A stretch of 64,000 bases of DNA, from the NCBI GenBank assembly GCA_030710605.1, contig CP092872.1:3144757-3208756 (forward strand). Direction: 5' to 3'. Source of the stretch: Cordylochernes scorpioides (taxonomy: Eukaryota > Arthropoda > Arachnida > Pseudoscorpiones > Chernetidae). Under the pieces are notes generated by a model. The model was given only the letters and a program-made list of their open reading frames with translations, was not told the origin of the DNA and made no database searches. Shown here piece after piece: positions 34,881 through 64,000 of this stretch. The position numbers were made by a program, and so were the translations under genes. How positions within the stretch are numbered: position 1 is the first letter of the stretch; each line of letters starts with the position of its first letter.

Positions 34881-34887
34881 TATAATG

Positions 34888-37732: not shown

Positions 37733-38502
37733 TTATTCTTCATTGTTGGCTTTTTATATTACATTTACTCTTTATTGTTGGCTTTTTATCTTACATTCAT
37801 TCTTCATTGTTGGCTTTTTATATCATATTTACTCTTCATTGTTGGCTTTTTATATTATATTCTGACCAAAATCTATCTGTGAACTTCACACAGTGAACTT
37901 CACACAGACAGAATAAGGCAATTATGTAAGTAGATTTACTCTTCTTTGTTGGCTTTTTATCTTACATTCATTCTTCATTGTTGGCTTTTTATATTACATT
38001 TACTATTCATTGTTGGCTTTTTATCTTACATTCACTCTTCATTGTTGGCTTTTTATCTTACATTCATTCTTCATTGTTGGCTTTTTATATTACATTCACT
38101 CTTCATTGTTGGCTTTTTATCTTACATTATTCTTCATTGTTGGCTTTTTATATTACATTTACTCTTCATTGTTGGCTTTTTATCTTACATTCACTCTTCA
38201 TTGTTGGCTTTTTATATTATATTTTTAGATTGAGATTATTAGCTAGTATGTAAAAATATTAACTCTGTTGAAATTTAATTTTGTATTTATATATAAATAA
38301 AATTAACTCTGTTGATTTTTTTGTATTTAATCGATAACAGCGAAGTTACGCATGTTAATGTTAGGGAAAAATATTTTGACGTTAAGCAAAACCTGCTCCA
38401 TCTCGTTTTACATAAATGTTGAAAATTTGGTCGAAATTGATGCATTGTAACGAAAGTTTTTAGTGATGTCCTCTTATGAAATTTGCATTTTATTAATATA
38501 GA
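36775..38502 (-). mobile_element. Composite Helitron inserted in gypsy pol
   Basis: Minus-strand 3' end CTAG at 36775-36778 preceded by A; 5' end TC at 38502 followed by T. This is the A/T target of Helitrons. The gypsy frame reads into both edges, so the entire 1.7 kb was gained after gypsy inserted, followed by the internal tandem duplication. Confidence 0.7.
37663..38222. repeat. 32-bp minisatellite
   Basis: Units of TTCATTGTTGGCTTTTTAT plus a TTACATTCACTC-like spacer, in two runs (37663-37860 and 37926-38222). It produces repetitive hydrophobic open frames that are not real proteins. The inverted copy is at 63710-64000. Confidence 0.9.
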
Positions 38503-38505
38503 TTA

Positions 38506-38652
38506 AAGAAGATGTCTAGCGTCAATTATCTAATAGAACCGAAAGATACACCTAGACAAGATCCATTGAAAGTTCATGTTTCGAAACTCAACCTTATTAT
38601 AAAATAATTAATGAGGTAATTCATGAGGATGTGACAACCTCAGGAGGGGGAA
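38506..38652 (+). pseudogene. Ty3/gypsy pol C-terminus and polypurine tract
   Basis: VNYLIEPKDTPRQDPLKVHV (about 38520-38580) continues the integrase C-terminus. A purine run AGGAGGGGGAAG (38641-38652) directly precedes the 3' LTR. Confidence 0.75.
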
Positions 38653-39040
38653 GTGTTGCATCCTGTTTGATGTGCCCTCCATTTAATTAAAATAATCTCT
38701 GATATTTTAAATATATTTATACAATTAATATCAATTAAGGAGGATCAGAAGATGAGTTTCTTTTATTGTATGAATGCAACGAGCTTTCGGGCAAAAGCCC
38801 TTCGACAGGCAAAATATAACTATACAAAGAAAGATAACGATTTATATATGTTAATCTTAACTGAAAACCGATTTTTGAATAAAGTAAATATTAAATCTGC
38901 TGTCTGAGACCACGAGACGGCGCATGGTTTGGGCTATTGAAATAAACATGTGGGAGGTTTAAATGTAGTTTGTGTAGGCTGCGGGGATGTCTATTTTTCT
39001 ATTTATGCTGTGTAGCTTGGATGAAACTATGGATTCTAGA

Positions 39041-39193
39041 ACCAAGACAGCGAGAATACAATTTTCACCGACCTCCACACTTACAATCCCAACATCACAT
39101 TCACTCTTGAGAGAGAACATGAGCTTGTTATTCCTTTCCTGGACGTCCTAGTCATACGCACCCCAAACACCTACCATACCACAGTCTACTACA
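39041..39193 (+). pseudogene. PLE reverse transcriptase, C-terminal piece
   Basis: Reads TDLHTYNPNITFTLEREHE then VIPFLDVLVIRTPNTYHTT, matching the PFLDV region of PLE RT. The frame is broken by the insert at 39194. Confidence 0.75.
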
Positions 39194-39774
39194 GATTAGA
39201 AAATTCGGCTCACATAGCCAGGGACGATATAGGCAGCAATGCCCTTGCGTCCCCTCTAGCGTCACACAGCCCGAAGGAATGATGCATTCTCCATGCACCG
39301 AGCGGCCTTTGGTAGGCCCCTCGCGCCCGCCAGTATGGTCCGGCTACAATGGGGTTGACCACTCACCCACAGGCGTCTCCGAGAGTTCATTGGCAAGGTT
39401 ACTGTCCGAGCCCTCTCGTTCGGACTTAGATCCACCCGTCCTACGCTCCTATAGGACTCCCCCCCCTTTAGCCCTCGCACCCTTACCCAGTCCTCCCTGA
39501 ATCTGCCGTCGAATCAAGGACCTCTGAGGTGCCGAGGTTGACGCGGGGACACCGACGTGGAGGCGGGGGGGTGGTACTACTGTGTGCACCCCTTGGTTTC
39601 TCATGGTGCGCACGGCAAGGACGCTCCCAATGGCGCACACACAGAGCGAAGACCCAAGAGTTTCAAGACACGTGCGCCTCGCTTTCGCGAGTGCAACACG
39701 TAGAGACGCCTCTCTACACTCACTCCCCTCTAGGGTGACCGTAGAGGGCAGCCCCACAGGGTCTTCCGCCCCCG
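39194..39774. mobile_element. 581-bp GC-rich insert with 14-bp target duplication
   Basis: Flanked by CACAGTCTACTACA at 39180-39193 and 39775-39788. The right-arm PLE has the same flanks but only 63 bp between them (62666-62728), matching the first part of this insert. The sequence is rich in CpG, has open frames on both strands and resembles no element I know. Confidence 0.75.
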
Positions 39775-39775
39775 C

Positions 39776-40489
39776 ACAGTCTACTACAAGAAAAACCACC
39801 CCCCCAGATACACCCATTATAGGTCGCACTGTCCAACCTCCCACAAAATCAATATAGTTAAAGCCCTCACCCGCCGCCTATTAACCCACTGCTCACTCCC
39901 CATCTTCAAAACTATTGAAAAGAACCGCATCATCTCCCATCTTACAATTTCAGGTTTCCCTCTATCCTTCATAGAAAAACACACCTATTCACCTGTTCCT
40001 CTCAACCCTCCTGCAACTTACAAATCCACATGTGTGATCCCATTCTCTCCCCTCTTAGTTAACCTCTCCCGTTTCCTCAAACCCTTTGGCATCCGTACCT
40101 TTTTTACTAACACACCTAACCTCCACTCACTCCTTAGGCATCCCATCACAAAAACCGACTCCTCCACTGATCCTCTAACATCTTCTGGAGCAGTCTACTC
40201 GGTCTCGTGCCAACAGTGTCCTGCCACCTATGTGGGGGAGACCGGTAGAACCATCGCCATCAGAATGAACGAACACACACGCAACATCACCAACCGAGAT
40301 ACCCGTTCCCTTATTTTCCAACACATTGCATCTTCTGGCCATTCCTTTGACACTGCTAACCCAACCATTCACTACAAAAATATCTCCAACCTACACCAGA
40401 GATTGGTTCTAGAATCCATAGTTTCATCCAAGCTACACAGCATAAATAGAAAAATAGACATCCCCGCAGCCTACACAAACTACATTTAA
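39776..40489 (+). CDS. PLE C-terminal region with GIY-YIG endonuclease
   Basis: The frame is open for about 238 codons from the insert edge. It begins VYYKKNHPPRYTHYRSHCP, the thumb-like end of PLE RT that includes the HK residues. The endonuclease follows near 40195: VYSVSCQQCPATYVGETGR carries the GIY (VYS), YIG (YVG) and CxxC features. Further on come IAIRMNEHTRN with conserved Arg and Glu-His, and HIASSGHSFD. PLE endonucleases nick chromosomal DNA to prime reverse transcription. Without the RT core the element is not autonomous. Compared with the right-arm copy it keeps four extra residues (TRSL). Confidence 0.8.
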   Translation, partial: TVYYKKNHPPRYTHYRSHCPTSHKINIVKALTRRLLTHCSLPIFKTIEKNRIISHLTISGFPLSFIEKHTYSPVPLNPPATYKSTCVIPFSPLLVNLSRFLKPFGIRTFFTNTPNLHSLLRHPITKTDSSTDPLTSSGAVYSVSCQQCPATYVGETGRTIAIRMNEHTRNITNRDTRSLIFQHIASSGHSFDTANPTIHYKNISNLHQRLVLESIVSSKLHSINRKIDIPAAYTNYI

Positions 40490-41004
40490 ACCTCCCACAT
40501 GTTTATTTCAATAGCCCAAACCATGCGCCGTCTCGTGGTCTCAGACAGCAGATTTAATATTTACTTTATTCAAAAATCGGTTTTCAGTTAAGATTAACAT
40601 ATATAAATCGTTATCTTTCTTTGTATAGTTATATTTTGCCTGTCGAAGGGCTTTTGCCCGAAAGCTCGTAGCATTCATACAATAAAAGAAACTCATCTTC
40701 TGATCCTCCTTAATTGATATACCTTACTAGAAGAGTCTTTACCTTTATACAATTAATATCAACAGATTATCTAATATGGTATCATTCATTTTGTAACATT
40801 GTTATTGTTTACATCTTGATTGTTTATTTTTGGGAAGAGAGGAGCGATCGACGCGAAGTCTCAAGATCACCAACTACGAGGAAAATAACAGATAAATAAA
40901 GATACAAAATTGTATAGATAAACATTTCATTAATTTGAAAAAAAAAATATCACAAACGTGATAAATATGCTGGGATAGGATTCATAAATTTAAAAAGTAA
41001 AAAG

Positions 41005-41065
41005 GCATCTCCTTATCAGGCAACTGAAAGTTACTGATGACTACAGTTGCCCGATAAGGAAATGC
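41005..41065. repeat. 61-nt hairpin in both arms
   Basis: GCATCTCCTTATCAGGCAAC pairs with GTTGCCCGATAAGGAAATGC around a 17-nt loop; the flanks also pair. Counterpart at 61391-61451. Length and shape recall a miRNA precursor, but a MITE remnant is as likely. Confidence 0.7.
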
Positions 41066-41104
41066 TATTTTTTTAAATTTCATTAATTACTTTTTATTAT
41101 AATA

Positions 41105-41380
41105 CACCTATCCCCCGATTTACACGGTAGATACGTTCCTGAGAAAAACGTGTAAATCGAAAATTATTTTTTTTTTTAATTAGAAATACAGACACAGTGT
41201 GCGTGTGCAGCAAGTCAGCACATAAGCTCGGGATTTCTCGTGAGATGTGTACACAGCGCATGTGTTTAATCACAGTAGCATTTAGTATAGTGCGATAAAA
41301 ACAAAAAAAAAACTTATTTGGGAAACCGTGTGAAAGCTAAAACGTGTAAAACAAGTACCGTGTAAATCGGGGGATAGGTG
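41105..41380. mobile_element. Pogo/Tigger-like MITE, family D
   Basis: 276 bp with ends CACCTATCCCCCGATTTACA and complement, TA on both sides. Mirror copy at 61073-61351. Confidence 0.85.
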
Positions 41381-41408
41381 TACAATATAATGCGGCCTAT
41401 GATTGTAA

Positions 41409-41671
41409 AACGATGATAGACAAATTTTACCGCAAATGCTTCTTTTTAAACGAAAAATCGTAATTTTTATTCAAGGAGAAAAAACGACTATTCCCAACCT
41501 TAAGGGATGAAGTAGGAAAGGATGAATTGTGAAGAGTAATGATGAACGGAAAAATAAAAGTGTCCAGAGATGGGAATCGAACCCACAGTGTTCCGCTTAC
41601 CGAGCAGATGCCATGTCCAGGGTAGCTTAGTGGACATGGCATCTACCCGGTAAAATTTGTCTAACATCGTT
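41409..41671. mobile_element. TIR element enclosing a tRNA-like region
   Basis: 24-bp inverted ends (AACGATGATAGACAAATTTT and complement, one mismatch) enclose a minus-strand Pol III B-box-like GGTTCGATTCCCATCTCTGG. A hairpin with 14-bp arms AGATGCCATGTCCA also lies inside (41603-41643). Mirror copy at 60781-61044. Confidence 0.7.
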
Positions 41672-42056
41672 ATACTTTTTTTTATTTACTTCTATTATGG
41701 AATCATCCTCTGGAAACATGTATGACGTCAAGAAGAAGAAAACAATGTCGATTATCCTGCAAATCTGCAACTGAACAACAATATTCAACAATTAACTTGT
41801 AGTTGCTTTCCGTGAGGGACAGATTATAAGAATATAGATACTCCTAGAGGTGGTCTCTTATTGGAGGTTTGGATAATTACTTTTTAACTTATTTCAAAAT
41901 TGCTTATCAGAAATGGCTTTCACATGAAATTACACTCCATTGAGCATAAGGTCACTTATACCAACATATCAACGGACTGGTAAATATATTTTGTAAAAAA
42001 AAAAAATCATCGAACGCTTTTAAAAAATATACTTTACCGAGTATTTTAAAGAAATA

Positions 42057-42245
42057 CAGTAGAACTTACTTGTAAAGGAAACATAGTTGCAAAGCCAAAG
42101 TGTTCTTCACAGAGAGATGTCCTCTTACAGGAGAGTTGCTTTATAGTAAAAATAGTAATTTCGGATATATATATGTGAGAAAACTGTCCTTTGTAGAGAA
42201 GTGTCGTCTAGCGTCAGTGACCTCTCATGGAGGTTTAACAGAACT
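42057..42245. mobile_element. Pogo/Tigger-like MITE, family A
   Basis: CAGTAGAACTTACTTGTAAA to GGAGGTTTAACAG. Mirror copy 60210-60396. Confidence 0.7.
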
Positions 42246-42309
42246 TCCTAAGTCAATTCTAATTTTCAAAATCTAAATGCTTAAATTAACCTCTTAAAGC
42301 AAAAAAAAA

Positions 42310-42614
42310 TTTTTTTGGCTTATCCTCAGTACACGTGGTACAGGACATTATAATCATGGTGGGTAGAGGTAGGCGACTGTTTTTACTGTAAGTGCACCAC
42401 ATGTCTACACATGTGAAAAGCAGTTCGACTTTGCACTTGCAAATGTGCCAGAGCCCCGTTTGGTTACTTGCACTCGATGATATGGTTGGACTTATGCAAG
42501 AATCGGGGTCATTGGAATTTTTTTTTAATCAGAAAAAAAGTGGCCAATGCGGGAATCGAACCCGGGTCGTACGGTCGAACACCAACGGTTCAGATCATCC
42601 TTCCACCGACCCCT
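42310..42614 (-). mobile_element. tRNA-headed SINE
   Basis: Same insertion as 59837-60141 in the right arm, hence older than the arm split. Confidence 0.8.
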
Positions 42615-42990
42615 AAAGCAAAAGTAAAAACGGTATAAAAATTTATTATTATTATTTGAATAATAATTTTCTAAGTTTCCGTAGACCGTTGCCAGTTTAC
42701 CAGAATGTCCTGACGTGTAAAAGAATTATGTACATATTATATTTTACCGTCCTTTAAAAAAAGCTTATGTCCTCAGCTTCCTTTGCCAGAATTTCTCTTG
42801 AGAATCATTGATTATAGTAAAGGAACAAAAAAATGGCAAGAGTACCAATCAATACCTTTTATTTTTAGACTTTTAGTATTATTTACAGATAACACAGAGA
42901 GAGATTACAGATATTATAGATAAGATTGAAGTTTACCTCAATGCCTGCGTAGAGATCTATTATAAAATATCGTTTATTTACCTATTTTAT
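42615..42990. other. Gene flank, no feature seen
   Basis: Downstream flank of the minus-strand SKP1-like gene. AATAAAA-type signals lie close after the stop on the minus strand (near 42985). Confidence 0.4.
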
Positions 42991-43509
42991 TTAAATCTTA
43001 CATTTCAATCCAAACTTATCCATTTCTTCTTGAATTTGTTCCCGTTTGATATCATTAGCGAAGCTCTTGACAAGAAGATCTTCTAGAGCGTAGAGCTCCA
43101 GAAAGTTGGCTGCGTTTGCTAATTCCGTTCGTTCGTCGAAGCTCTTCTGTACAAACTCGGTATCCCATGGGGAGAAGACATCTGGGACGTACTTGATATG
43201 TACAGGTTCCTCAACAAACGGTGGGTCGTCTTTATGATGATTCAACCATTCAATTATCATCTTGAGGATAGGGCCTGTGGTTCCAGGTACCAACATTGGT
43301 TCATCAGGATTATGGTCATCTATAAAGATATTAACGTATATAATTTTCATGGCTATCTCGAGATCTGCTTCGATTATCTCACCATCAGGGGATTGTAGTT
43401 TGATCATCTTTGCTGTGCTAGGTGTTGTTGGGAGGTTCGTTGCTACCTGGTCATCCTCTGCAGCACCTTCCATGGTAGATACAGTTGAGTTTCCCGGTAA
43501 TGTCTCCAT
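42991..43509 (-). CDS. SKP1-like protein, long N-terminus (left arm)
   Basis: The 172-aa product has a 34-residue polar, acidic leader (METLPGNSTVSTMEGAAEDD...) and then a SKP1 body: MIKLQSPDGEIIEADLEIA (35-53), MLVPGTTGPILKMIIEWL, NHHKDDPPF (the SKP1 signature), WDTEFVQKSFDERTELANAA (118-137) and NFLELYALEDLLVKSFANDI. It ends EEMDKFGLKCKI, where SKP1 would still have an EEEAQVRKENQWCEEK-type tail. The CUL1-facing fold is thus present and part of the F-box-binding tail is gone. A likely 3' splice site lies 5' of the ATG (mirror of 58868-58869), so the gene has a 5' UTR intron and is not a plain retrocopy. The right-arm gene encodes the same protein. Confidence 0.85.
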   Translation of the reverse strand: METLPGNSTVSTMEGAAEDDQVATNLPTTPSTAKMIKLQSPDGEIIEADLEIAMKIIYVNIFIDDHNPDEPMLVPGTTGPILKMIIEWLNHHKDDPPFVEEPVHIKYVPDVFSPWDTEFVQKSFDERTELANAANFLELYALEDLLVKSFANDIKREQIQEEMDKFGLKCKI

Positions 43510-43559
43510 GAAGCTGTTTGTGAATTTATTTAGTCAAATACTTAGAAAAACAGTTTAGT

Positions 43560-43907
43560 TATCACCCGGTCTCCTGGAGCCCTACAGACAAAAAGCAAAC
43601 AAAATAAACGATTTCAATATTATTTTTTATTCATACTAAGAATTTATCTAGATAACATATATTGACTCTGTTTTTATTTATTCTATGATAAAAATATATG
43701 CCTTCAATTTTTTGCTTGTGTGTGTAGTTTTGTATTTGGAATATTATTTGCTTTTATTCAACTTTATTTTAAAAAATGTATTGCAGAATATATGTGTGAG
43801 AGAGGTACGTTCGTTTGAAAATAGAATAAATATTTGGTATTGAAATAATTTTCATTTAGAGATGAAAATTAATGATAAGGCACAATTTGGATTATAGATT
43901 ATAAACA
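43560..43907. other. Upstream flank of SKP1-like gene
   Basis: AT-rich. On the minus strand TTTGTTTGCTTTTTGTCTG then TAG ends near 43581, a pyrimidine-rich tract with AG fit for a 3' splice site. About 1% different from the right arm. Confidence 0.45.
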
Positions 43908-43941
43908 CAAGGTAATAAGACCAAATATATAAATAGTGTGT

Positions 43942-43975
43942 GACGTTTCAGTAACAGTGTTGTTGCCATCATCAG
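43942..43975 (-). ncRNA. PLE-type small hammerhead ribozyme motif
   Basis: On the minus strand CTGATGA, a stem-loop, then GAAACGTC. All invariant core bases of the hammerhead (CUGANGA, GAAA) are present. The very short stem III (CGTC) is the form described for PLE hammerheads, which cleave as dimers. One stem II pair is mismatched. Confidence 0.65.
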
Positions 43976-43995
43976 ACATCATTCAGTACTTTTGA

Positions 43996-44029
43996 CTGAA
44001 GATGGTAACAACGCTGTTACCGGAACGTC
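43996..44029 (+). ncRNA. PLE-type hammerhead motif, core altered
   Basis: CTGAAGA, stem GGTAACA-ACGC-TGTTACC (perfect), then GGAACGTC. The GAAA is changed to GGAA, so activity is doubtful. Confidence 0.5.
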
Positions 44030-44072
44030 ACACACTATTTATTTATTTGGCTTTAATTACCTTGTGTTTAGA

Positions 44073-44769
44073 GATGAAAATTTTTCATTTTGTGAAGTCG
44101 TTTTGTGAAAATTTATATAAAGTTCATGTGAAAACTATTCGAAATATACAATATTAATAAATATACAAAGTTTGTTTTGTGTCCGCTTATAATTTTTTAA
44201 AATGGTGTTCCCAGAATTTTATGTGTCTGAGATACTACTGTACATTCAGTAAAAAAATCTATTTACATGACATGTTTCTATCATCAATGGCAACGTTTAT
44301 TCACAAAATTGATTGGATATCGACCTTGCCATTGTGAAGTTAAATAACAAGAATACCTTCATTGTGATTTGCATACAATATTTGGAGCTCTGTGTCGAAG
44401 TGTCGTCTCACGTCAGCCCATTGTCTCAGCCAGATTCCTTGAACTGTGGAATCCGGAGGTGCTGAAGGACCGTTAGCTTGATGCAATGTTTCCTACATAA
44501 CCGTTAGGTTCACTAGATGTTGACTGTCTTCATTAGTTTTATTTGGTTAACCAAGAATTCTATAATTGAATTAAATCAATAAAAAAAAGACTTGTGTATA
44601 TTTGCAGAGTGTCTCTATTCAGAAATTGGAAGGCAAGCTTCCACGCTTCATCAGGCCACTGGCTCTGCAAAGGCGTGTAACATACATATAATAGAGATTC
44701 ACAGAAATAAATTTTAAAATCAAATATAAATAGTTTCCAGTTGTAGACAATGACAATTGAAACAAATTT
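44073..44769. other. Arm sequence without gene
   Basis: Matches 57700-58380 inverted at several per cent divergence. At 44590-44700 is a repeat with CCTGATGAAGCGTGGAAG that looks like another retroelement end. Confidence 0.45.
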
Positions 44770-45150
44770 TATTGACTTCGTGTCAATAATTTACGTTAAA
44801 AAATGGGAAAAAACTAAAATATATATGATCATGCGGGGGATGTGCCCCGGCGAGTGAGCCTTCTTTCCCAGGCGATGAGCGGATGGTCAGCCCAACCTGT
44901 ACGAAGTACCGGTAGATGATGGATTTGGCCGACGTCAAGATGGCCAAGTCGTCATCTTCGAGGCCAGACCCGAAACTCCAGGCCCGTAAGTCAGGGGGTC
45001 GCCCGAGGACACTGAAGGCTTCGATGATGAGGGGCCTGATACGACTGGAGCTCCAGTTGTAGAGGGTTAGGGGGACAGTTTCAATAGGGGTAGGATTATC
45101 TGTCTTGAATATGCTGGAACTGTTGGGGTAGATCTTCTGTTTATGCTGTT
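44770..45150 (-). pseudogene. LINE polymerase C-terminal fragment (left arm)
   Basis: Minus-strand mirror of 57285-57690, with the same IYRYFVQVGL block. Ends with GTCAATAAAATTTGTTTCAA. Confidence 0.65.
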
Positions 45151-45274
45151 ATTGTATAGCGTATTATGGTGACAACTACCCGCGGTCTGTCCTACAGTTC
45201 AAAATAGTTTTTGTTATATTCATAAAACAAGTGGAGTTCTAATTCACAGAGAATAGCGCTAAGATGGTTTATGT

Positions 45275-45590
45275 CTTTAAAATATTGTAAGGAAGGCTGA
45301 GTCTAGATTGGTGGTTCTGTGGGGGCCGAGAGACTTCCTTCCAGCCTGCTGAGATGACAGACCACGGCAAACATACAAGCGGGGGCCTGGAAATAGTACA
45401 GATGGCCACCGCTGCGGCAGATCGGCGGAAGTCAATGAGAACCCAATAGACATTCTAGGGTGTTGTCCTTTTGTCTTCCTATAAAAATGTAGCAAATGCG
45501 TAATACAAAATAAACACTAACTATGAAATACTTTCTGGGCCATCGCTGGACTTAATAAATCGACACACTACAGTTCCTAGGAGGGTCCTG
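45275..45590 (-). repeat. Interspersed repeat, unassigned
   Basis: Three copies (also 49895-50190 and 56870-57175) start TAGTGTGTCGATTTAT and contain GGACAACACCCTAGAATGTC. They yield similar short frames, but frameshifts between copies argue against a protein. Possibly an LTR fragment. Confidence 0.5.
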
Positions 45591-45960
45591 TCTTAAAAAT
45601 GATTTCTGCGTTGAAGTTAAAGAATCCACATTCTCTCTGAGTGAGTTTTCATGGTCTTCACAACGAATGAATTTTTCCAGGCATCTTTAAAACAAAAATA
45701 TGTCTATACCCGAACATGAATAACATCTTCGCTCTTTTTTAGTTACAAGGTAATATAAGATATTAGAATAAAAACCTTGTATTGAGTGAAGAGACAAAAT
45801 TTTGGTATAAAATGTTATCTCCTGGGTGTAAAATCCCATTTTAATATTGGTAATATTTCTTCGGAATGTGGTTTGAAGGTTCTTGAGGCTTCTTCCTTTT
45901 GCTGGAATAGATTCCTTGCAGCTATGAGGAGAGAGGTCACATCCTGAAACATTATTTCAT

Positions 45961-46091
45961 TCAATTCTCCCTTCCAATCATCTCGCAGAGATCAACAGGA
46001 ATCCTACCTTCCTTCCTTGGATCTTCTCTGTACCTAGCAAGGTCTATGGTCACTTTACGTCCTCTACACAACACATCAGAGATTGTCGTAG
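45961..46091 (-). CDS. Candidate exon 2 of MGNCC gene (left arm)
   Basis: Reads ATTISDVLCRGRKVTIDLAR then YREDPRKEGRIPVDLCEMIG and stops at TGA (45961-45963). The 3' splice site would be CTAGAG just 5' of CTACGAC. It is three codons shorter than the right-arm copy. Exon status is inferred from frame conservation and matching phase. Confidence 0.35.
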
Positions 46092-46254
46092 CTCTAGCTA
46101 ATTACTTTAAGAATCATTTCTAACAAGAGCTAATGGCAACGAGATTCTATATTAAAGATATATAAGATTGGCCATCTTTCAGATAATAACTTCCTTCAAC
46201 AGGCTGTAATACGAACACCATTTTTGATGCGTATGATTCTTTTTGAAATAAAAT

Positions 46255-46725
46255 AATTTTCTACTGCCCTTACTGCAATTATAAATTAATAGGAGGGCCT
46301 GGCTCATCAGTGGTGAACTATATTAAGTACACCAATACCTCGCTTTGCGTCGTTTCGTTTTGCGTTTTTTTTTTTTTTTTTCGAAGTTGCGTCGCTGCTT
46401 AATTTTTACTGATTTTCACTGTGCGTTGTTAGATTTTCTAAGTTGCGTTATTTTGGATTCTAGGCTTTAATTTTTTTTTTCTAAAATATGGCAATACCTT
46501 TGTTTTTGATTGCGCCAATTTATTTTCACTTTGCGTCGTTTCAATTTGCGTCGTGTTTTTTTGGAACGTAACCCCGACGCAAAGCGAGGTATGGGTGTAT
46601 GGTAAATTAAACTGGAGAAATCGCTGGGGGATGGATTCACCACTGATGAGTCAGGTCTTCATATTATTTTATTATTGCAGTAAGGGCAGTAGAAAATTGT
46701 CTTGTTTAAAAAGAAATATACGCAT
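46255..46725. repeat. Foldback element interrupted by MITE C
   Basis: Arms hold TACTGCCCTTACTGCAAT and TTGATGCGTATGATTC. A family-C MITE sits in the loop at a TA. Confidence 0.75.
46330..46597. mobile_element. Pogo/Tigger-like MITE, family C
   Basis: Uninterrupted copy, TA on both sides. The right-arm counterpart is split by a copia element. Confidence 0.85.
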
Positions 46726-47039
46726 CAAAAATAATTTACATTCCTAACAACATAAAAGTTTCAAAGTTCGGAGATTTTGTATTCCTACCTTTTGTGCATT
46801 GATCTACCATTGCTGCCAGGATTGTCTGAGTTGTTATAGGAAGTTCAGAGGGAGCTTATAGAGTTTTCTGAAGACGTCGAGTGTCATAGCGATTGCTGAA
46901 GATCTAAATCTCGACATAACGTGAAAAAATTGCTCCTACCTTGTACATTGGTCCACTATTGCCATTGGGAATGCCAGAGTTATACTAAAAGATCTAAAGA
47001 TGGCCTAAAAGCCTCAGGAAATAGCGAATATACAGTAGT
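46726..47039. other. No gene seen
   Basis: Contains a short internal duplication (TGTACATTGGTCCACTATTG near 46940 and TTGTGCATTGATCTACCATT near 46794). Mirror at 53690-54000. Confidence 0.4.
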
Positions 47040-47400
47040 ACATCTCTCTTCTTCTTCTTTCTTATCTCCACTCAATCATATTAGGGTATCAAGTTGACAA
47101 CCATCATGACTGTGTTAAGTAGAAAACGTCTGCCTTTGTCATTAAAACTGGGAGCACTACTCAGTAGCAGGCCGACTTAGCTCCAAAAGAAATGGCCGCC
47201 TCTGACATGAGGAACAGACGCCATGTGCAGCTGCTCCTAACATGGAGTACAAACGCTGCTCATCCGGTATCCCTGAAGACCTTACAGGGTGCTATCAGCC
47301 GGGCCAGCTGAGCCCAGGTTTTTTAGTGAGCTTGTTACTGCTCTCCCTCCTCCTTTTTCATCCGGGCTTGGGACCGGCAACATCTAGTTACAGACGTAAA
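47040..47400. repeat. Interspersed repeat, unassigned
   Basis: Third copy of the 15735 family; mirror of 53330-53690. Confidence 0.6.
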
Positions 47401-47500
47401 CTGTCCTTTAGAGAGAAGTGTCTTCATAGTGGACAACAGCTGATAGGTAAAAATAGCAATTTGGACAATGATAACTATATTTTGTAATAAATTCGAACTA

Positions 47501-47655
47501 TTTTGACGCGTATGATTCAACTAAATAAATATTTTTTCTGTCTTTACTGCAATGATAAAATAATTAGAGGGTCTGGCTCATCATTGCAGTAAGGGTAGTA
47601 GAAAATTGATTTATTTTTTTAAAAAATCATACGCGTCAAAAATCGTTAAAATTTC
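47501..47655. repeat. Foldback element
   Basis: TTTTGACGCGTATGATTCA pairs with its complement at 47625-47645; loop carries GGTCTGGCTCATCA. Mirror at 53085-53240. Confidence 0.75.
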
Positions 47656-50190: not shown

Positions 50191-50197
50191 ATATGAT

Positions 50198-53690: not shown

Positions 53691-54668
53691 ATGTACTACT
53701 GTATATTCGCCATTTCCTGAGGCTTTTAGGCCATCTTTAGATCTTTTAGTATAACTCTGGCATTCCCAATGGCAATAGTGGACCAATGTACAAGGTAGGA
53801 GCAAATTTTTCACCTTATGTCGAGATTTAGATCTTCAGCAATCGTTGTGACACTCGTCGTCTTCAGAAAACTCTATAAGCTCCCTCTGAACTTCCTATAA
53901 CAACTCAGACAATCCTGGCAGCAATGGTAGATCAATGTACAAGGTAGAAACACAAAATCCCCGAACTTTGAAACTTTTCTACTTTTTTGTTGTTAGAAAT
54001 GTAAATTATTTTTGATGCGTATATTTATTTTAAAACAAAACAATTTTCTATTGTCCTTACTGCAATAATAAAATAATATGAAGGCCTGAAGGCCTGATTC
54101 ATCAGTGGTGAATCCTTCCCCAGCGATTTCTCCAGTTTAATTTACCATACACCCATACCTCGCTTTGGGTCGGGGTTACGTTCAAAAAAAAAAAAAAAAA
54201 AAAAAAAACACGACGCAAAGTGAAAATAAATTGGCGCAATCAAAAACAAAGGTATTGCCATATTTTAGGAAAAAAAATTAAAAAAAAAAAAAATTAAAGA
54301 CTCGAATCCAAAACAACGCAACTTCGAAAATCTAACGACGCACAGTGAAAATCAGTAAAAATTAGCACCGACGCAACTTCGAAAAAAAAAAAAAAAAAAC
54401 GCAAAACGAAACGACGCAAAGCGAGGTATTGGTTGTTATTTTGTAATTTATTTAACACATAAATATACTACAAATTAAGATAATATCTTATTTTATTATC
54501 TTTACCAAGATTGCAAACATATTAATTAGAGAATTATTTACAACACACTAAAAGGTAAACATTAGGGCTATATGCATTCCTTTGTTCTGTACTGCCAGGG
54601 TTGCTGAAACACATTTATTTTAACACCCCCCTCAATTGGCATTTTCACAAATGTCAATTGCACAATTT

Positions 54669-55488
54669 TCACCCCATGTTGGAAAGTTTCATGAATTTGT
54701 TCAACATGTCTTTACATAAGGGTTTAGTTAACATGTCTGCTATGTTTCTGCATTCCTTAATGTAGTCTATTTTGATTTCAGTATTTATTGTTTCTATTGC
54801 TGTGATTACATTTTCATACTCTTCATTCAATGACAATAACAGATGACATATTTTGTCAGATTCATCCATTTTGGAACCTATATTATCCAATTCACGAATT
54901 ATAGAATCAAATTTAAGAAAATGGTCCTCTAATTTTTCATTATGTTTGCATTTTAAAGTCAACAACTTTCTTTTTAGTGTTAGTTTTGTAAACACGCTTT
55001 TTCTTTCAAATATATTTTCGAGCGCTTTCATCATTTCTTTAGCTGTTTTTGCATCTTTAATTATGTCTAGATGTTTATCAGTTAAACATTGAACAAGCGT
55101 AGATTTTGCCTTTGCATCTTCAATTGCAAATAACTCGCGTTCTTTTTCATCGACAAAATCATTAATTTCCTTTCTAATGTTAGATGTATTTGTTTTTCTT
55201 CTAACAATAGTTTAACTCAACAACAACAACAACAACAAAAAGCCTTTATTCAGGGTCACTGACCCTATACAGGATTCACCAGAGGTATGCATAAGACCAA
55301 AGCAGTGAGACAAAGGAAATAGCGATATATACAGAAGAAAAGGAAAAAAAAAACAAGAAAGAGAAAGAGGGAAGCAAGAAAAACAACACAAAAAGAGTAG
55401 CAGTAAGAAAGTGTAGTTTAACTCTAAATTTACAGCTGTTGAAATTTGTACCAGTCAAAATTGGCAAATTAGAATTAATTACGCTCAT
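54669..55488 (-). pseudogene. Copia gag fused to RNase H tail
   Basis: Starts MSVINSNLPILTGTNFNSC (55488), typical of copia gag, then is broken by a LINE at 55219-55413. It resumes with KALENIFERKSVFTKLTLKR and LEDHFLKFDSIIRELDNIGS. A deletion joins it to ECRNIADMLTKPLCKDML, the C-terminal RNase H motif of copia Pol. Protease, integrase and RT are lost; mobility would need proteins in trans. Confidence 0.85.
55219..55413 (-). mobile_element. 5'-truncated LINE with (GTT)n tail
   Basis: Minus strand ends AATAAAGGCTTTTTGTTGTT repeated; 11-bp duplication TAGTTTAACTC at 55208-55218 and 55414-55424. Nested inside copia. Confidence 0.85.
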
Positions 55489-55770
55489 TTTAAAATATAT
55501 TTAAAGTTGTACTTACTAAAACACGTTCTTGATATTTCTTTGTTATTATTTCAACTTCAGTCTCATAATCTGTTATTTTGTAGTTTAATTAACACATAAA
55601 TATACTACAAATTAAGATAATATCTTATTTTATTATCTTTACCAAGATTGCAAACATATTAATTAGAGAATTATTTACAACACACTAAAAGGTAAACATT
55701 AGGGCTATATGCATTCCTTTGTTCTGTACTGCCAGGGTTGCTGAAACACATTTATTTTAACATTGGTGTA

Positions 55771-56020
55771 CTTAATAGAGTTCACCACTGATGAGCCAGG
55801 CCCTCCTATTAATTTATAATTGCAGTAAGGGCAGTAGAAAATTATTTTATTTCAAAAAGAATCATACGCATCAAAAATGGTGTTCGTATTACAGCCTGTT
55901 GAAGGAAGTTATTATCTGAAAGATGGCCAATCTTCTATCTCTTTAATATAGAATCTTGTTGCCTTTAGCTATTATATTCCTCCTTATAGCTCTTGTTAGA
56001 AATGATTATTAAAGTAATTA
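55771..56020. other. Foldback half and intron-like DNA
   Basis: Mirror of 46100-46325 (GGGCCTGGCTCATCAGTGG reversed, GGGCAGTAGAAAAT). No other feature. Confidence 0.45.
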
Positions 56021-56027
56021 TCTAGAG

Positions 56028-56167
56028 CTACGACAATCTCTGATGTGTTGTGTAGAGGACGTGAAGTGACCATCGACCTTGCTAGGTACAGAGAAGCTCC
56101 AAGGAAGGAAGGTAGGATTCCTGTTGATCTCTGCAAGATGATTGGAAAAGAGAATTGGATGAAATAA
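56028..56167 (+). CDS. Candidate exon 2 of MGNCC gene (right arm)
   Basis: After TATCTAGAG the frame CT-ACG-ACA reads TTISDVLCRGREVTIDLARY then REAPRKEGRIPVDLCKMIGK and ends ENWMK-TAA. Its phase fits the predicted end of exon 1 at 52755, giving a protein of about 195 aa. The intron would be 3.3 kb, full of transposons. A frame is also kept in the left arm. Splicing is a prediction. Confidence 0.35.
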
Positions 56168-56457
56168 TGTTTCAGGATGTGACCTCTCCCTGCATAGCTG
56201 CAAGAAATCTATTCCAGCAAAAGAAAGAAGCCTCAAGAACCTTCAAACCACATTCCGAAGAAATATTACCAATATTAAAATGGGATTTCACATCCAGGAG
56301 TTAACATTTTACCAACATTTTGTCTCTTCACTCAATACAAGGTTTTTATTGTAATACCTTATATTACCTTATAACTATGAGGGAAGATGTTATTCTTGTT
56401 CGAAAATAGGCATCTTTTCGTTTTAAAGATGCGTAGAAAAATTCATTCTTTGTGAAG

Positions 56458-56770
56458 GGGGGTCGATGGAAGGCTGGTTAAACCGTTTGGTTTACGACCA
56501 CTACGACCTGGGTTCGATCCCCGCATTGGACACTTTTTTCTGTTTGAAAAAAAATGCTCCAATGGCCCCCCCCCGATTCTTGCAAAAGTCCAACCCCACC
56601 AGCGAGTGCAAGTAACCAAACGGGGCTCTGGCACATTTGTAAGTGCAAAGTCGAACTGCTTTCACATGTGTAGACATGTGGTGCGCTTACTGTAAAAAGC
56701 AGTCGCTAACTACCCACCATGATTATCATGGCCTGTACCACGTGTACTAGGGATTAGCAAAAAAAAAAAA
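56458..56770 (+). mobile_element. tRNA-headed SINE with perfect 13-bp duplication
   Basis: ATTCTTTGTGAAG flanks it at 56445-56457 and 56771-56783. The left arm has a single site (TTCATTCGTTGTGAAG mirrored, near 45660). It defines the SINE: tRNA head first, poly-A last. Confidence 0.95.
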
Positions 56771-56869
56771 ATTCTTTGTGAAGACAATGAAAACTTACTC
56801 AGAGAGGATGTAGATTCTTTAACTTCAACGCAGAAATAATTTTTAAGACAGGACCCTCCTAGGAACTGT

Positions 56870-57175
56870 AGTGTGTCGATTTATTAAGTCCAGCGATGGC
56901 CCAGAAAAGTATTTCATAGTTAGTGTTTATTTTGTATTACGCATTTGCTACATTTTTATAGGAAGACAAAAGGACAACACCCTAGAATGTCTATTGGGTT
57001 CTCATTGACTTCCGCCGATCTGCCGCAGCGGTGGCCATCTGTACTATTTCCAGGCCCCCGCTTGTATGTTTGCCGTGGTCTGTCATCTCAGCAGGCTGGA
57101 AGGAAGTCTCTCGGCCCCCACAGAACCACCAATCTAGACTCAGCCTTCCTGGAAATAGTTTTAAAGACATAAACC
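56870..57175 (+). repeat. Interspersed repeat, unassigned
   Basis: Mirror of 45275-45590. Confidence 0.5.
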
Positions 57176-57284
57176 ATCTTAGCGCTATTCTCTGTGAATT
57201 AGAACTCCACTTGCTTTATGAATAGAGCAAAAAAATTTTAGATCTGTCGGACAGCCCGCGGGTAGTTGGTAACATAATACGCTA

Positions 57285-57690
57285 TACAATAACAACATAA
57301 ACAGAAGATCTACCCCAACAGTTCCGGCATATTCAAGACAGATAATCCTACCCCTATTGAAACTGTCCCCCTAACCCTCTACAACTGGAGCTCCAGTCGT
57401 ATCAGGCCCCTCATCATCGAAGCCTTCAGTGTCCTCGGGCGACCCCCTGACTTACGGGCCTGGATTTTCTGGTCTGGCCTCGAAGATGACGACCTGACCA
57501 TCCTGGCGTCGGCCAAATCCATCATCTACCGGTACTTCGTACAGGTTGGACTGACCACCCGCTCATCGCCTGGGAAAGAAGGCTCACTCGCCGGGGCACA
57601 TCCCCCGCATGATCATCTATATACGTATTTTAGTTTTATTTCCATTTTTTAACGTAAATTATTGACAAGAAGTCAATAAAATTTGTTTCA
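57285..57690 (+). pseudogene. LINE polymerase C-terminal fragment (right arm)
   Basis: Frame from about 57300 reads IYPNSSGIFKTDNPTPIETV, LYNWSSSRIRPLIIEAFSVL, RAWIFWSGLEDDDLTILASA and IIYRYFVQVGL. This is the downstream part of a non-LTR polymerase. It ends with GTCAATAAAATTTGTTTC. 5'-truncated. Confidence 0.65.
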
Positions 57691-58420
57691 ATTGTCATAT
57701 TGTCTACAACTGGAAACTATTTATATTTGATTTTAAAATTTATTTCTGTGAATCTCTATTATATGGGTGTTGCACGTCTTTTCGGAGCCAGTGGTCCTAT
57801 GAAGCGTAAAAGCTTGCCTTCCATTTTCTGAATAGAGACACTCTGCAAATATACACAAGTCTTTTTTATTGATTTAATTCAATTATATAATTCTGGGTTA
57901 ATCAAATAAAACTAATGAAGGCAGTCAACATCTAGTGGACCTAAGAGTTATGTAGGAAACAACATTGTATCAAGTTAACGGTCCTTCAGCACCTCCGGAT
58001 TCCACAGTTCAAGGAATCTGGCAGAGACAATGGGCTGACGTGAGACGACACTTCGACACAGAGGTTCCAAATATTGTATGCAAATCACACTGAAGGTATT
58101 CTTGTTATCTAACTTCACAATGGCAAGGTCGATATCCAATCAATTTTGTGAATAAACGTTGCCATTGATGATAGAAACATGTCATGTAAATAGACATTTT
58201 TTACTGAATGTACAGTAGTATCTAAAAGATTAAATTCTAGAAACACTATTTTAAAAAATATATATGCTGACACAAAACAAACTTTGTATATTTGTTTATA
58301 TTGTATATTTCGATTTTTTTTACATGAACTTTATAGAAATTTTCACAAAACGACTTCACAAAATGAAGAATTTTCATATCTAAACACAAGGTAATAAGAC
58401 CAAATAAATAAATTGTGTGT

Positions 58421-58454
58421 GACGTTTCTGTAAGAGCGTTGTTATCATCTTCAG
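58421..58454 (-). ncRNA. PLE-type small hammerhead ribozyme motif
   Basis: CTGAAGA, stem-loop (ATAACAACGCTCTTA), then GAAACGTC on the minus strand. Core complete; stem II partly weakened. Confidence 0.6.
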
Positions 58455-58474
58455 TCAAAAGTACTGAATGATGT

Positions 58475-58508
58475 CTGAAGATGGTAACAATGCTCTTACA
58501 GAAACGTC
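58475..58508 (+). ncRNA. PLE-type small hammerhead ribozyme motif
   Basis: CTGAAGA, TGGTAACAATGCTCTTACA, GAAACGTC. Core complete (CUGANGA, GAAA); stem II weakened by a G-to-C change. Such minimal hammerheads with tiny stem III are known from PLEs. Confidence 0.6.
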
Positions 58509-58867
58509 ACACACTATTTATTTATTTGGTCTTATTACCTTGTGTTTATAATCTATAATCCAAATTGTGCCTTATCATTAATTTTCATCTCTAAATGATA
58601 TATTATTTCAATACCAAATATTTATTCTATTTTCAAACGAACGTACCTCTCTCACACATATATTCTGCAATACATTTTTTAAAATAAAGTTGAATAAAAG
58701 CAAATAATATTCCAAATACAAAACTACACACACAAGCAAAAAATTGAAGGCATATATTTTTATCATAGAATAAATAAAAACAGAGTCAATATATGTTATC
58801 TAGATAAATTCTTAGTATGAATAAAAAATAATATTGAAATCGTTTATTTTGTTTGCTTTTTGTCTGT

Positions 58868-58869
58868 AG
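58868..58869 (+). promoter_or_regulatory. Predicted 3' splice site before SKP1-like ATG
   Basis: TTTGTTTGCTTTTTGTCTG then TAG precedes GGCTCCAGGAGACCGGGTG, about 70 nt 5' of the ATG. Same in the left arm. The matching donor was not located. Confidence 0.45.
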
Positions 58870-58941
58870 GGCTCCAGGAGACCGGGTGATAACTAAACTG
58901 TTTTTCTAAGTATTTGACTAAATAAATTCACAAACAGCTTC

Positions 58942-59460
58942 ATGGAGACATTACCGGGAAACTCAACTGTATCTACCATGGAAGGTGCTGCAGAGGATGA
59001 CCAGGTAGCAACGAACCTCCCAACAACACCTAGCACAGCAAAGATGATCAAACTACAATCCCCTGATGGTGAGATAATCGAAGCAGATCTCGAGATAGCC
59101 ATGAAAATTATATACGTTAATATCTTTATAGATGACCATAATCCTGATGAACCAATGTTGGTACCTGGAACCACAGGCCCTATCCTCAAGATGATAATTG
59201 AATGGTTGAATCATCATAAAGACGACCCACCGTTTGTTGAGGAACCTGTACATATCAAGTACGTCCCAGATGTCTTCTCCCCATGGGATACCGAGTTTGT
59301 ACAGAAGAGCTTCGACGAACGAACGGAATTAGCAAACGCAGCCAACTTTCTGGAGCTCTACGCTCTAGAAGATCTTCTTGTCAAGAGCTTCGCTAATGAT
59401 ATCAAGCGGGAACAAATTCAAGAAGAAATGGATAAGTTTGGATTGAAATGTAAGATTTAA
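58942..59460 (+). CDS. SKP1-like protein, long N-terminus (right arm)
   Basis: Encodes the same 172 residues as 42991-43509 (see there for domains). Overlapping frames in the other strands are also identical, so the DNA itself is identical or nearly so over the gene, while its immediate flanks differ by about 1%. AATAAA at 59460-59465 and 59473-59478 can serve polyadenylation. Like all four copies it lacks the canonical SKP1 tail. A role as a specialised SCF adaptor is possible but not shown. Confidence 0.85.
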   Translation: METLPGNSTVSTMEGAAEDDQVATNLPTTPSTAKMIKLQSPDGEIIEADLEIAMKIIYVNIFIDDHNPDEPMLVPGTTGPILKMIIEWLNHHKDDPPFVEEPVHIKYVPDVFSPWDTEFVQKSFDERTELANAANFLELYALEDLLVKSFANDIKREQIQEEMDKFGLKCKI

Positions 59461-59836
59461 ATAAAATAGGTAAATAAACGATATTTTATAATAGATCTCT
59501 ACGCAGGCATTGAGGTAAACTTCAATCTTATCTATAATATCTGTAATCTCTCTCTGTGTTATCTGTAAATAATACTAAAAGTCTAAAAATAAAAGGTATT
59601 GATTGATACTCTTGCCATCTTTTTGTTCCTATACTATAATCAAGACTCTCAAGAGAAATTCTGGCAAAGGAAGCTGAGGACATAAGCTTTTTTTAAAGGA
59701 CGGTAAAATATAATATGTACATAATTCTTTTACACGTCAGGACATTCTGGTAAACTGACAACGGTCTACGGGAACTTAGAAAATTATTATTCAAATAATA
59801 ATAATAAATTTTTATACCGTTTTTACTTTTGCTTTA
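59461..59836. other. Gene 3' flank, no other feature
   Basis: Mirror of 42615-42990. Confidence 0.4.
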
Positions 59837-60141
59837 GGGGTCGGTGGAAGGATGATCTGAACCGTTGGTGTTCGACCGTACGACCCGGGTTCGATTCCCG
59901 CATTGGGCACTTTTTTTCTGATTAAAAAAAAATTCCAATGACCCCGATTCTTGCATAAGTCCAACCATATCATCGAGTGCAAGTAACCAAACGGGGCTCT
60001 GGCACATTTGCAAGTGCAAAGTCGAACTGCTTTTCACATGTGTAGACATGTGGTGCACTTACAGTAAAAACAGTCGCCTACCTCTACCCACCATGATTAT
60101 AATGTCCTGTACCACGTGTACTGAGGATAAGCCAAAAAAAA
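59837..60141 (+). mobile_element. tRNA-headed SINE
   Basis: Flanked by TTTTGCTTTA at 59827-59836 and 60148-60157. Shared with the left arm. Confidence 0.85.
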
Positions 60142-60209
60142 TTTTTTTTTTGCTTTAAGAGGTTAATTTAAGCATTTAGATTTTGAAAATTAGAATTGAC
60201 TTAGGAAGT

Positions 60210-60396
60210 TCTGTTAAACCTCCATGAGAGGTCACTGACGCTAGACGACACTTCTCTACAAAGGACAGTTTTCTCACATATATATATCCGAAATTACTAT
60301 TTTTACTATAAAGCAACTCTCCTGTAAGAGGACATCTCTCTGTGAAGAACACTTTGGCTTTGCAACTATGTTTCCTTTACAAGTAAGTTCTACTGT
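60210..60396. mobile_element. Pogo/Tigger-like MITE, family A
   Basis: Mirror of 42057-42245. Confidence 0.7.
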
Positions 60397-60780
60397 ATTT
60401 CTTTAAAATACTCGGTAAAGTATATTTTTTAAAAGCGTTCGATGATTTTTTTTTTTTACAAAATATATTTACCAGTCCGTGAATATGTTGGTATAAGTGA
60501 CCTTATGCTCAATGAAGTGTAATTTCATGTGAAAGCCATTTCTGATAAGCAATTTTGAAATAAGTTAAAAAGTAATTATCCAAACCTCCAATAAGAGAAC
60601 ACCTCTAGGAGTATCTATATTCTTATAATCTGTCCCTCACGGAAAGCAACTACAAGTTAATTGTTGAATATTGTTGTTCAGTTGCAGATTTGCAGGATAA
60701 TCGACATTGTTTTCTTCCTTCTTGACGTCATACATGTTTCCAGAGGATGATTCCATAATAGAGGTAAATAAAAAAAGTAT

Positions 60781-61044
60781 AACGATGTTAGACAAATTTT
60801 ACCGGGTAGATGCCATGTCCACTAAGCTACCCTGGACATGGCATCTGCTCGGTAAGCGGAACACTGTGGGTTCGATTCCCATCTCTGGACACTTTTATTT
60901 TTCCGTTCATCATTACTCTTCACAATTCATCCTTTCCTACTTCATCCCTTAAGGTTGGGAATAGTCGTTATTTCTCCTTGGAATAAAAATTACGATTTTT
61001 CGTTTAAAAAGAAGCATTTGCGGTAAAATTTGTCTATCATCGTT
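60781..61044. mobile_element. TIR element enclosing a tRNA-like region
   Basis: Mirror of 41409-41671. The plus strand carries the 14-bp hairpin (60809-60848) and B-box-like GGTTCGATTCCC. Confidence 0.7.
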
Positions 61045-61072
61045 TTACAATCATAGGCCGCATTATATTGTA

Positions 61073-61351
61073 CACCTATCCCCCGATTTACACGGTACTT
61101 GTTTTACACGTTTTAGCTTTCACACGGTTTCCCAAATAAGTTTTTTTTTGTTTTTATCGCACTATACTAAATGCTACTGTGATTAAAACACATGCGCTGT
61201 GTACACATCTCACGAGAAATCCCGAGCTTATGTGCTGACTTGCTGCACACGCACACTGTGTCTGTATTTCTATAATTTAAAAAAAAAAATAATTTTCGAT
61301 TTACACGTTTTTCTCAGGAACGTATCTACCGTGTAAATCGGGGGATAGGTG
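61073..61351. mobile_element. Pogo/Tigger-like MITE, family D
   Basis: Mirror of 41105-41380, TA on both sides. Confidence 0.85.
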
Positions 61352-61390
61352 TATTATAATAAAAAGTAATTAATGAAATTAAAAAAAATA

Positions 61391-61451
61391 GCATTTCCTT
61401 ATCGGGCAACTGTAGTCATCAGTAACTTTCAGTTGCCTGATAAGGAGATGC
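61391..61451. repeat. 61-nt hairpin
   Basis: Mirror of 41005-41065. Confidence 0.7.
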
Positions 61452-61711
61452 CTTTTTACTTTTTAAATTTATGAATCCTATCCCAGCATATTTATCACGT
61501 TTGTAATATTTTTTTTTCAAATTAATGAAATGTTTATCTATACAATTTTGTATCTTTATTTATCTGTTATTTTCCTCGTAGTTGGTGATCTTGAGACTTC
61601 GCGTCGATCGCTCCTCTCTTCCCAAAAATAAACAATCAAGATGTAAACAATAACAATGTTACAAAATGAATGATACCATATTAGATAATCTGTTGATATT
61701 AATTGTATAAA

Positions 61712-63187
61712 GGTAAAAACTCTTCTAGTAAGGTATATCAATTAAGGAGGATCAGAAGATGAGTTTCTTTTATTGTATGAATGCTACGAGCTTTCGGGCA
61801 AAAGCCCTTCGACAGGCAAAATATAACTATACAAAGAAAGATAACGATTTATATATGTTAATCTTAACTGAAAACCGATTTTTGAATAAAGTAAATATTA
61901 AATCTGCTGTCTGAGACCACGAGACGGCGCATGGTTTGGGCTATTGAAATAAACATGTGGGAGGTTTAAATGTAGTTTGTGTAGGATGCGGGGATGTCTA
62001 TTTTTCTATTTATGCTGTGTAGCTTGGATGAAACTATGGATTCTAGAACCAATCTCTGGTGTAGGTTGGAGATATTTTTGTAGTGAATGGTTGGGTTAGC
62101 AGTGTCAAAGGAATGGCCAGAAGATGCAATGTGTTGGAAAATATCTCGGTTGGTGATGTTGCGTGTGTGTTCGGTCATTCTGATGGCGATGGTTCTACCG
62201 GTCTCCCCCACATAGGTGGCAGGACACTGTTGGCACGAGACCGAGTAGACTGCTCCAGAAGATGTTAGAGGATCAGTGGAGGAGTCGGTTTTTGTGATGG
62301 GATGCCTAAGGAGTGAGTGGAGGTTAGGTGTGTTAGTAAAAAAGGTACGGATGCCAAAGGGTTTGAGGAAACGGGAGAGGTTAACTGAGAGGGGAGAGAA
62401 TGGGATCACACATGTGGATTTGTAAGTTGCAGGAGGGTTGAGAGGAACAGGTGAATAGGTGTGTTTTTCTATGAAGGATAGAGGGAAACCTGAAATTGTA
62501 AGATGGGAGATGATGCGGTTCTTTTCAATAGTTAAGGTGGGGAGTGAGCAGTGGGTTAATAGGCGGCGGGTGAGGGCTTTAACTATATTGATTTTGTGGG
62601 AGGTTGGACAGTGCGACCTATAATGGGTGTATCTGGGGGGGTGGTTTTTCTTGTAGTAGACTGTGAGAGGGGACGCAAGGGCATTGCTGCCTATATCGTC
62701 CCTGGCTAGGTGAGCCGAATTTTTAATCTGTAGTAGACTGTGGTATGGTAGGTGTTTGGGGTGCGTATGACTAGGACGTCCAGGAAAGGAATAACAAGCT
62801 CATGTTCTCTCTCAAGAGTGAATGTGATGTTGGGATTGTAAGTGTGGAGGTCGGTGAAAATGGTATTCTCGCTGTCTTGGTTCTAGAATCCATAGTTTCA
62901 TCCAAGCTACACAGCATAAATAGAAAAATAGACATCCCCGCAGCCTACACAAACTACATTTAAACCTCCCACATGTTTATTTCAATAGCCCAAACCATGC
63001 GCCGTCTCGTGGTCTCAGACAGCAGATTTAATATTTACTTTATTCAAAAATCGGTTTTCAGTTAAGATTAACATATATAAATCGTTATCTTTCTTTGTAT
63101 AGTTATATTTTGCCTGTCGAAGGGCTTTTGCCCGAAAGCTCGTAGCATTCATACAATAAAAGAAACTCATCTTCTGATCCTCCTTAA
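61712..63187 (-). mobile_element. Penelope-like element (right arm copy)
   Basis: Same insertion as 38735-40743, flanked by TTGATATTAATTGTATAAA (61693-61711, 63188-63206). It has the inverted 3' end at 62883-63187. The foreign insert is reduced to 63 bp. Confidence 0.8.
61966..62409 (-). pseudogene. PLE GIY-YIG endonuclease (right arm)
   Basis: 147 residues are still open, with VYSVSCQQCPATYVGETGR and IAIRMTEHTRN. A 12-nt deletion removes TRSL. Upstream (about 62525) a 2-bp deletion puts the RT tail out of frame, so the longer left frame is broken here. Confidence 0.75.
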
Positions 63188-63424
63188 TTGATATTAATTG
63201 TATAAATATATTTAAAATATCAGAGATTATTTTAATTAAATGGAGGGCACATCAAACAGGATGCAACACTTCCCCCCTCCTGAGGTTGTCACATCCTCAT
63301 GAATTACCTCATTAATTATTTTATAATAAGGTTTGAGTTTCGAAACATGAACTTTCAATGGATCTTGTCTAGGTGTATCTTTCGGTTCTATTAGATAATT
63401 GACGCTAGACATCTTCTTTAATCT

Positions 63425-63710
63425 ATATTAATAAAATGCAAATTTCATAAGAGGACATCACTAAAAACTTTCGTTACAATGCATCAATTTCGACCAAATT
63501 TTCAACATTTATGTAAAACGAGATGGAGCAGGTTTTGCTTAACGTCAAAATATTTTTCCCTAACATTAACATGCGTAACTTCGCTGTTATCGATTAAATA
63601 CAAAAAAATCAACAGAGTTAATTTTATTTATATATAAATACAAAATTAAATTTCAACAGAGTTAATATTTTTACATACTAGCTAATAATCTCAATCTAAA
63701 AATATAATAT
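63425..63710 (+). mobile_element. Helitron 5' part (right arm)
   Basis: Mirror of 38225-38502, starting TCTATATTAATAAAATGC. Confidence 0.7.
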
Positions 63711-64000
63711 AAAAAGCCAACAATGAAGAGTGAATGTAAGATAAAAAGCCAACAATGAAGAGTAAATGTAATATAAAAAGCCAACAATGAAGAATGAATG
63801 TAAGATAAAAAGCCAACAATGAAGAGTGAATGTAATATAAAAAGCCAACAATGAAGAATGAATGTAAGATAAAAAGCCAACAATGAAGAGTGAATGTAAG
63901 ATAAAAAGCCAACAATGAATAGTAAATGTAATATAAAAAGCCAACAATGAAGAATGAATGTAAGATAAAAAGCCAACAAAGAAGAGTAAATCTACTTATA
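63710..64000. repeat. 32-bp minisatellite (right arm)
   Basis: Mirror of 37926-38222, with one 32-bp unit completed where the left copy has a short deletion (near 38128). Continues beyond the window. Confidence 0.9.

Follow-up and report, generated by a model that had tools for sequence, protein, structure and literature searches.

A palindrome-like block of SKP1-like genes in the Cordylochernes scorpioides assembly is very probably an overlap of contigs from two haplotypes

On the human Y chromosome, ampliconic palindromes are an established structure. Like these, the locus described here presents large inverted arms and a short spacer, however its join is an N gap and its inner arms are about 5% different. 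Palindromes in a tunicate have been argued to be real by means of depth, duplicated-gene and error checks, according to the part of the report considered here (PMC12448946). For the draft genomes of parthenogenetic animals (Adineta vaga, Folsomia candida and others), the sections at hand state that erroneous scaffolding can create artificial palindromes (PMC7953838). Our locus shares with the palindromes of these animals the inverted homologous blocks on a single scaffold, but those were, in the same sections, called by gene collinearity, whereas here contig ends explain the borders. Retained heterozygous overlaps and the damage they do to scaffolding have been described (PMC7203741, purge_dups), and so has false heterotype duplication (PMC9516828). 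As in the excerpts of these two papers on retained haplotigs, the locus has two diverged adjacent copies with an assembly gap between them, and the ends of the match are contig ends. In contrast to the haplotigs described in these excerpts, the two copies here run in opposite directions, which makes the site read as a palindrome, and it is known here from sequence alone. We conclude, with a probability of roughly 0.94, that the palindrome is a heterozygous overlap between the contigs of two haplotypes that was retained in the primary assembly. A literal reading of the sequence would make the site an ampliconic palindrome and double the local count of SKP1-like genes.

The window, a stretch of 64,000 nucleotides (C10:3144757-3208756), belongs to an assembly of 2.62 Gb in 24 sequences. 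The initial annotation had noted an inverted match of more than 10 kb on each side, and a BLAST comparison of the window with itself confirms it (37927-48274 against 63998-52511). The right arm ends 2 bases short of the window end in this window-only comparison, which makes the outer border suspect. With flanking DNA included (100 kb on either side of the window and 40 kb further upstream, 304 kb in total) the full inverted match pairs 13517-48274 with 97658-52511 in window coordinates; the outer borders proposed earlier, 37926 and 64000, were set by the window edge only. The arms are 34.8 kb (left) and 45.1 kb (right) long, and nine matching blocks hold 89% and 69% of their bases, respectively. 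Two outer blocks reach 99.49% identity (13517-28731 with 97658-82459) and 99.17% (34302-37654 with 72111-68757), and the shorter blocks between them lie at about 94-95%. The outer part of the left-contig overlap (13517-37926, plus strand) thus has a partner that extends up to 97658, beyond the window. Its inner part (37927-48274, plus strand) was delimited by self-comparison and global alignment, and the right arm inside the window (52511-64000, minus strand) by self-comparison and the flanking DNA.

Nine 100-N gaps divide the 304 kb into ten contigs, c0 to c9. Two of these gaps lie inside the window, at 4659-4758 and at 48275-48374, the latter being the scaffold join between c4 and c5; another (67257-67356) divides the right arm between two contigs, and a further one begins at 97659, right after the right arm ends. 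The left arm is part of c4 (4759-48274), with its inner part forming the end of that contig, and the right arm is made of c5 (48375-67256) and c6 (67357-97658). As had been claimed, the inner end of the left arm falls on the 100-N join, with homology up to the final base before the gap (48274 paired with 52511). This inner border is the final base of c4, and c5 continues unbroken for 4.1 kb past it; the outer border is the final base of c6 (97658), and c4 continues unbroken for 8.8 kb past it. Hence, each border is the end of one contig, with no visible breakpoint in the other, and the pattern is a dovetail overlap of contigs. As is typical of haplotigs, the copies are parted by an assembly gap and the match stops at contig ends while the partner runs on, and this favours two haplotypes. 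In an ampliconic palindrome arm, spacer and arm would be contiguous; here 100-N gaps interrupt the sequence between left arm and spacer, inside the right arm and where the right arm ends on its outer side. The spacer of about 4 kb in the initial annotation does exist as a stretch of DNA (48375-52510, plus strand), but it is the end of c5 reaching beyond the end of c4 and not a defined spacer. Its edge next to the arm (51950-52510) has one match in the genome. A 189-aa open frame (52293-52862, plus strand) spans the inner border; it is complete on c5, and its left copy is truncated by the end of c4, which likewise speaks for haplotypes. The frame matches no Pfam family, and over 340 bases the two copies show 5 synonymous and 6 nonsynonymous codon differences. 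The coincidence of match borders and contig ends in flanking DNA can largely settle a question of this kind without reads. Contig c6 ends within a unit of a 118-bp tandem repeat, of which 8.3 copies are found at 32380-33359, with related scattered units near 11776, 13513, 24205, 48766 and 51418.

On the explanation by two haplotypes, c4 would represent one haplotype and c5 together with c6 the other, in opposite orientation. The latter two contigs would have been placed beside c4, inverted relative to it and joined via the 100-N gap, their orientation or placement presumably having been set wrongly in scaffolding, and the two arm copies would be alleles. The simplest layout would consist of parallel haplotype tilings, c1+c4 and c0+c6+c5, that were shuffled by scaffolding. 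Of the two readings offered earlier, the contig tiling in flanking DNA lends strong support to the tail-to-tail joining of haplotypes, and not to the ampliconic palindrome with gene conversion.

Both arms carry SKP1-like genes, as had been annotated, namely one intronless open reading frame each within the window (left copy 42991-43533, minus strand; right copy 58918-59460, plus strand). The two frames differ at 1 of 543 nt and encode identical proteins. Both belong to the SKP1 family by their match to Pfam PF03931 (Skp1_POZ), at 46.8 bits against a curated cut-off of 21.9, and the protein matched 33 PDB sequences, with SKP1 at the top (E 4.1e-23). The outer overlap holds two more SKP1-like frames on the minus strand, at 14230-14787 (partner 96394-96951, 2 nt different) and 24664-25221 (partner 85974-86531, 1 nt different). 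Searched as a 1-kb query, the SKP1 kilobase of the arms has two full-length places in the genome, both at this locus, the four other matches being short and 78-90% alike. These two places, together with the single one for 51950-52510, argue for the haplotype overlap. A tblastn search with two SKP1 proteins found 14 SKP1-like places in the 304 kb, one of them partial, and by our own count about 8 or 9 loci remain after overlapping contigs are paired. The cluster of intronless SKP1-like genes is real, and its apparent size is inflated by duplication. Genome-wide, PF03931 gives 97 matches at E <= 0.001 (92 without internal stop). Many of them are clustered (C1, 85.79-86.09 Mb; C5; C10, 2.80-3.20 and 14.48-14.62 Mb; C18, 29.32-29.50 Mb), and many appear by eye as neighbouring pairs of equal score; at C1, 85.98-86.04 Mb, six pairs are each set 32.5-36.1 kb apart. 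Even allowing for haplotype doubling, there is a large genomic expansion of SKP1-like genes. Surveys of gene families or palindromes on this assembly must have the overlaps removed first.

The arms were described before as differing by substitutions and clean insertions, and this holds. When the inner arms are aligned globally, the aligned columns (about 9.7 kb) contain 253 mismatches, and there are 46 indels besides. Of the mismatches, 26 fall in 37927-43926, the first 6 kb (about 0.5%), and 227 in the remainder, 43927-48274 (about 5.3%), with an abrupt step near 43.9 kb. With such divergence and with insertions specific to one arm, the arms are not near-identical throughout, as those of an ampliconic palindrome would be. 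The right arm alone contains a short copia-type LTR element of 1.33 kb (54434-55762, minus strand), with 192-bp LTRs that are 98.96% alike, a gag fragment and a 5-bp duplication, and a copy of a dispersed repeat of about 310 bp (56458-56770, minus strand) with a target duplication of about 13 bp, which we take to be SINE-like. Only the left arm has 517 bp (39258-39774, plus strand) adjoining a GIY-YIG-like open reading frame, presumably Penelope-like (E 0.0004, just below the Pfam cut-off), and 56 bp (47875-47930, plus strand) that give the left copy of the 189-aa frame a different C-terminus. Past the window end, the right arm alone carries a further insertion at about 64.23-68.72 kb; it measures about 4.4 kb, has terminal inverted repeats, holds the gap at 67257-67356 and contains LINE-like fragments, the element names being our own reading of the sequence without a database match. 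Insertions of this kind commonly distinguish alleles and may also distinguish old duplicates. Judged by their sequence, the differences between the arms look allele-like, in patches of 0.5% and 5.3% and in clean LTR, SINE-like and 4.4 kb insertions, and this again points to haplotypes. Another copy of the 310-bp repeat adjoins a U6 snRNA-like sequence (49407-49512; 71.1 bits, gathering threshold 44), which to us appears degenerate compared to U6.

The principal alternative is a real inverted segmental duplication of the SKP1-like block, in which gene conversion would have partly homogenised the 35-45 kb arms and the assembler would have broken at the repeat borders. If true, this would be an ampliconic region within an expanding SKP1-like cluster, with outer arms homogenised and inner arms diverging, in an invertebrate-like genome. 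Conversion tracts could give outer arms that are 99.5% alike over 15 kb beside an inner 4.3 kb that is about 5% different. However, inner arms that have diverged this far, and of which only one carries the 1.3 kb LTR element and the 0.3 kb repeat, should not confuse an assembler. Contigs do break at repeat borders too, but at each border here only one of the two contigs breaks, and the inner border cuts an open frame. Smaller inverted repeats inside nearby contigs are in line with a real palindrome, yet the stretch also contains duplicates in direct orientation, parted by gaps, that show this same coincidence with contig ends, including the series c7, c8 and c9. A real palindrome is thus much less likely than a haplotype overlap, and we regard it as improbable. 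It is hardly conceivable that the site arose from a palindromic chimera in a long read or from one molecule duplicated as an artefact, since the false chimeric PacBio palindromes mentioned in the consulted part of PMC9516828 are of 7-17 kbp, and the arms here are 35-45 kb long, differ by 0.5-5% in sequence and also in transposon insertions that carry target duplications, and extend over three contigs.

Support for the haplotype overlap also comes from the neighbouring contigs. Contigs c0 and c1 are 99.6% alike over 20 kb in direct orientation, their match ending with the final base of c1, and the tail of c0 matches the head of c4 in three blocks of 97-98%, from the first base of c4 to the final base of c0. 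c8 matches its neighbours on both sides, c7 to the left and c9 to the right, at about 89-95%. The final base of c7 and the first base of c9 correspond to two adjoining bases in c8, which means that c8 is inserted between two pieces that belong together. These gap-separated, directly oriented duplicates (c0/c1, c0/c4 and c7/c8/c9) match the appearance of unpurged haplotigs, and their presence on the same scaffold argues for a like origin of the inverted pair. Among the 18 contig ends at gaps, 7 fall inside matches (at least 300 bp and 88%), and inter-contig matches (at least 500 bp and 88%) cover 55.7% of 303.1 kb. Some observations run counter to a simple pairing of haplotypes. At a threshold of 500 bp and 88%, c2 and c3 have no partner within the 304 kb. 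A query from c2 matched a dispersed repeat, and among the 40 of 251 candidates that were scored the best other places were 90-91% alike, on C10, with no partner of 95-100%. The overlap shared by c0, c4 and c6, 1.5 kb long, contains three sequences and not two: 5 of 1478 positions separate c4 from c6, and c0 is separated from these two by 46 of 1474 and 50 of 1468. A retained heterozygous overlap would present no more than two copies of its region; the SKP1 kilobase has two, and this one overlap has three diverged sequences. This could mean that the tail of c0 is a paralogue belonging to the tandem SKP1 array, or that the assembly took in more than two haplotypes. Inverted repeats within contigs also count against the preferred explanation; c1 has one at window coordinates -60634 to -51222 (arms of 4.4 kb, 94.8%), with matching stretches in c0. 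As it was assembled inside one contig, it is probably a real inverted duplication. In the left part of the window, the minus strand carries six tRNA-Gly(GCC) genes (3724-11086), three of them in a 289-bp tandem array (10313-11120).

Duplication over short distances is found elsewhere in the genome as well. Among 40 scored copies of the copia-type element, taken from 4154 first-look candidates, there are six pairs on the same chromosome less than 400 kb apart, compared to 0.24 expected for random placement. The flanks match in five of these six, three in direct and two in inverted orientation: the direct pairs on C1, C12 and C15 and the inverted pair on C21 have flanks whose longest block is 96-100% alike; on C11, the inverted pair has 99% over 151 bp, then an insertion, then 97% over 74 bp. 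Neither of the two pairs compared that lie more than 1 Mb apart shares flanking DNA. This difference favours retained haplotypes, and the five pairs indicate short-range duplicated loci on other chromosomes in both orientations, the gaps there not having been seen. On the other side, the flanks of the C10 pair (218 kb) do not match, and the central 10 kb of the C21 pair contain neither a gap nor an inverted match, so that the latter pair may be a real duplication. The doubling is also uneven: for PF00940 (POLRMT) there is one gene, on C4, and the N-terminal part of the domain (positions 24-133) was matched once; the assembly is thus doubled in patches and not throughout. The other PF00940 matches are fragments on C15, C18 and C21. 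On C15 (18346779-18533477) one such fragment, covering profile positions of about 289-347, was matched 15 times in clusters, with several copies about 840 bp apart, perhaps an exon caught in a satellite-like array.
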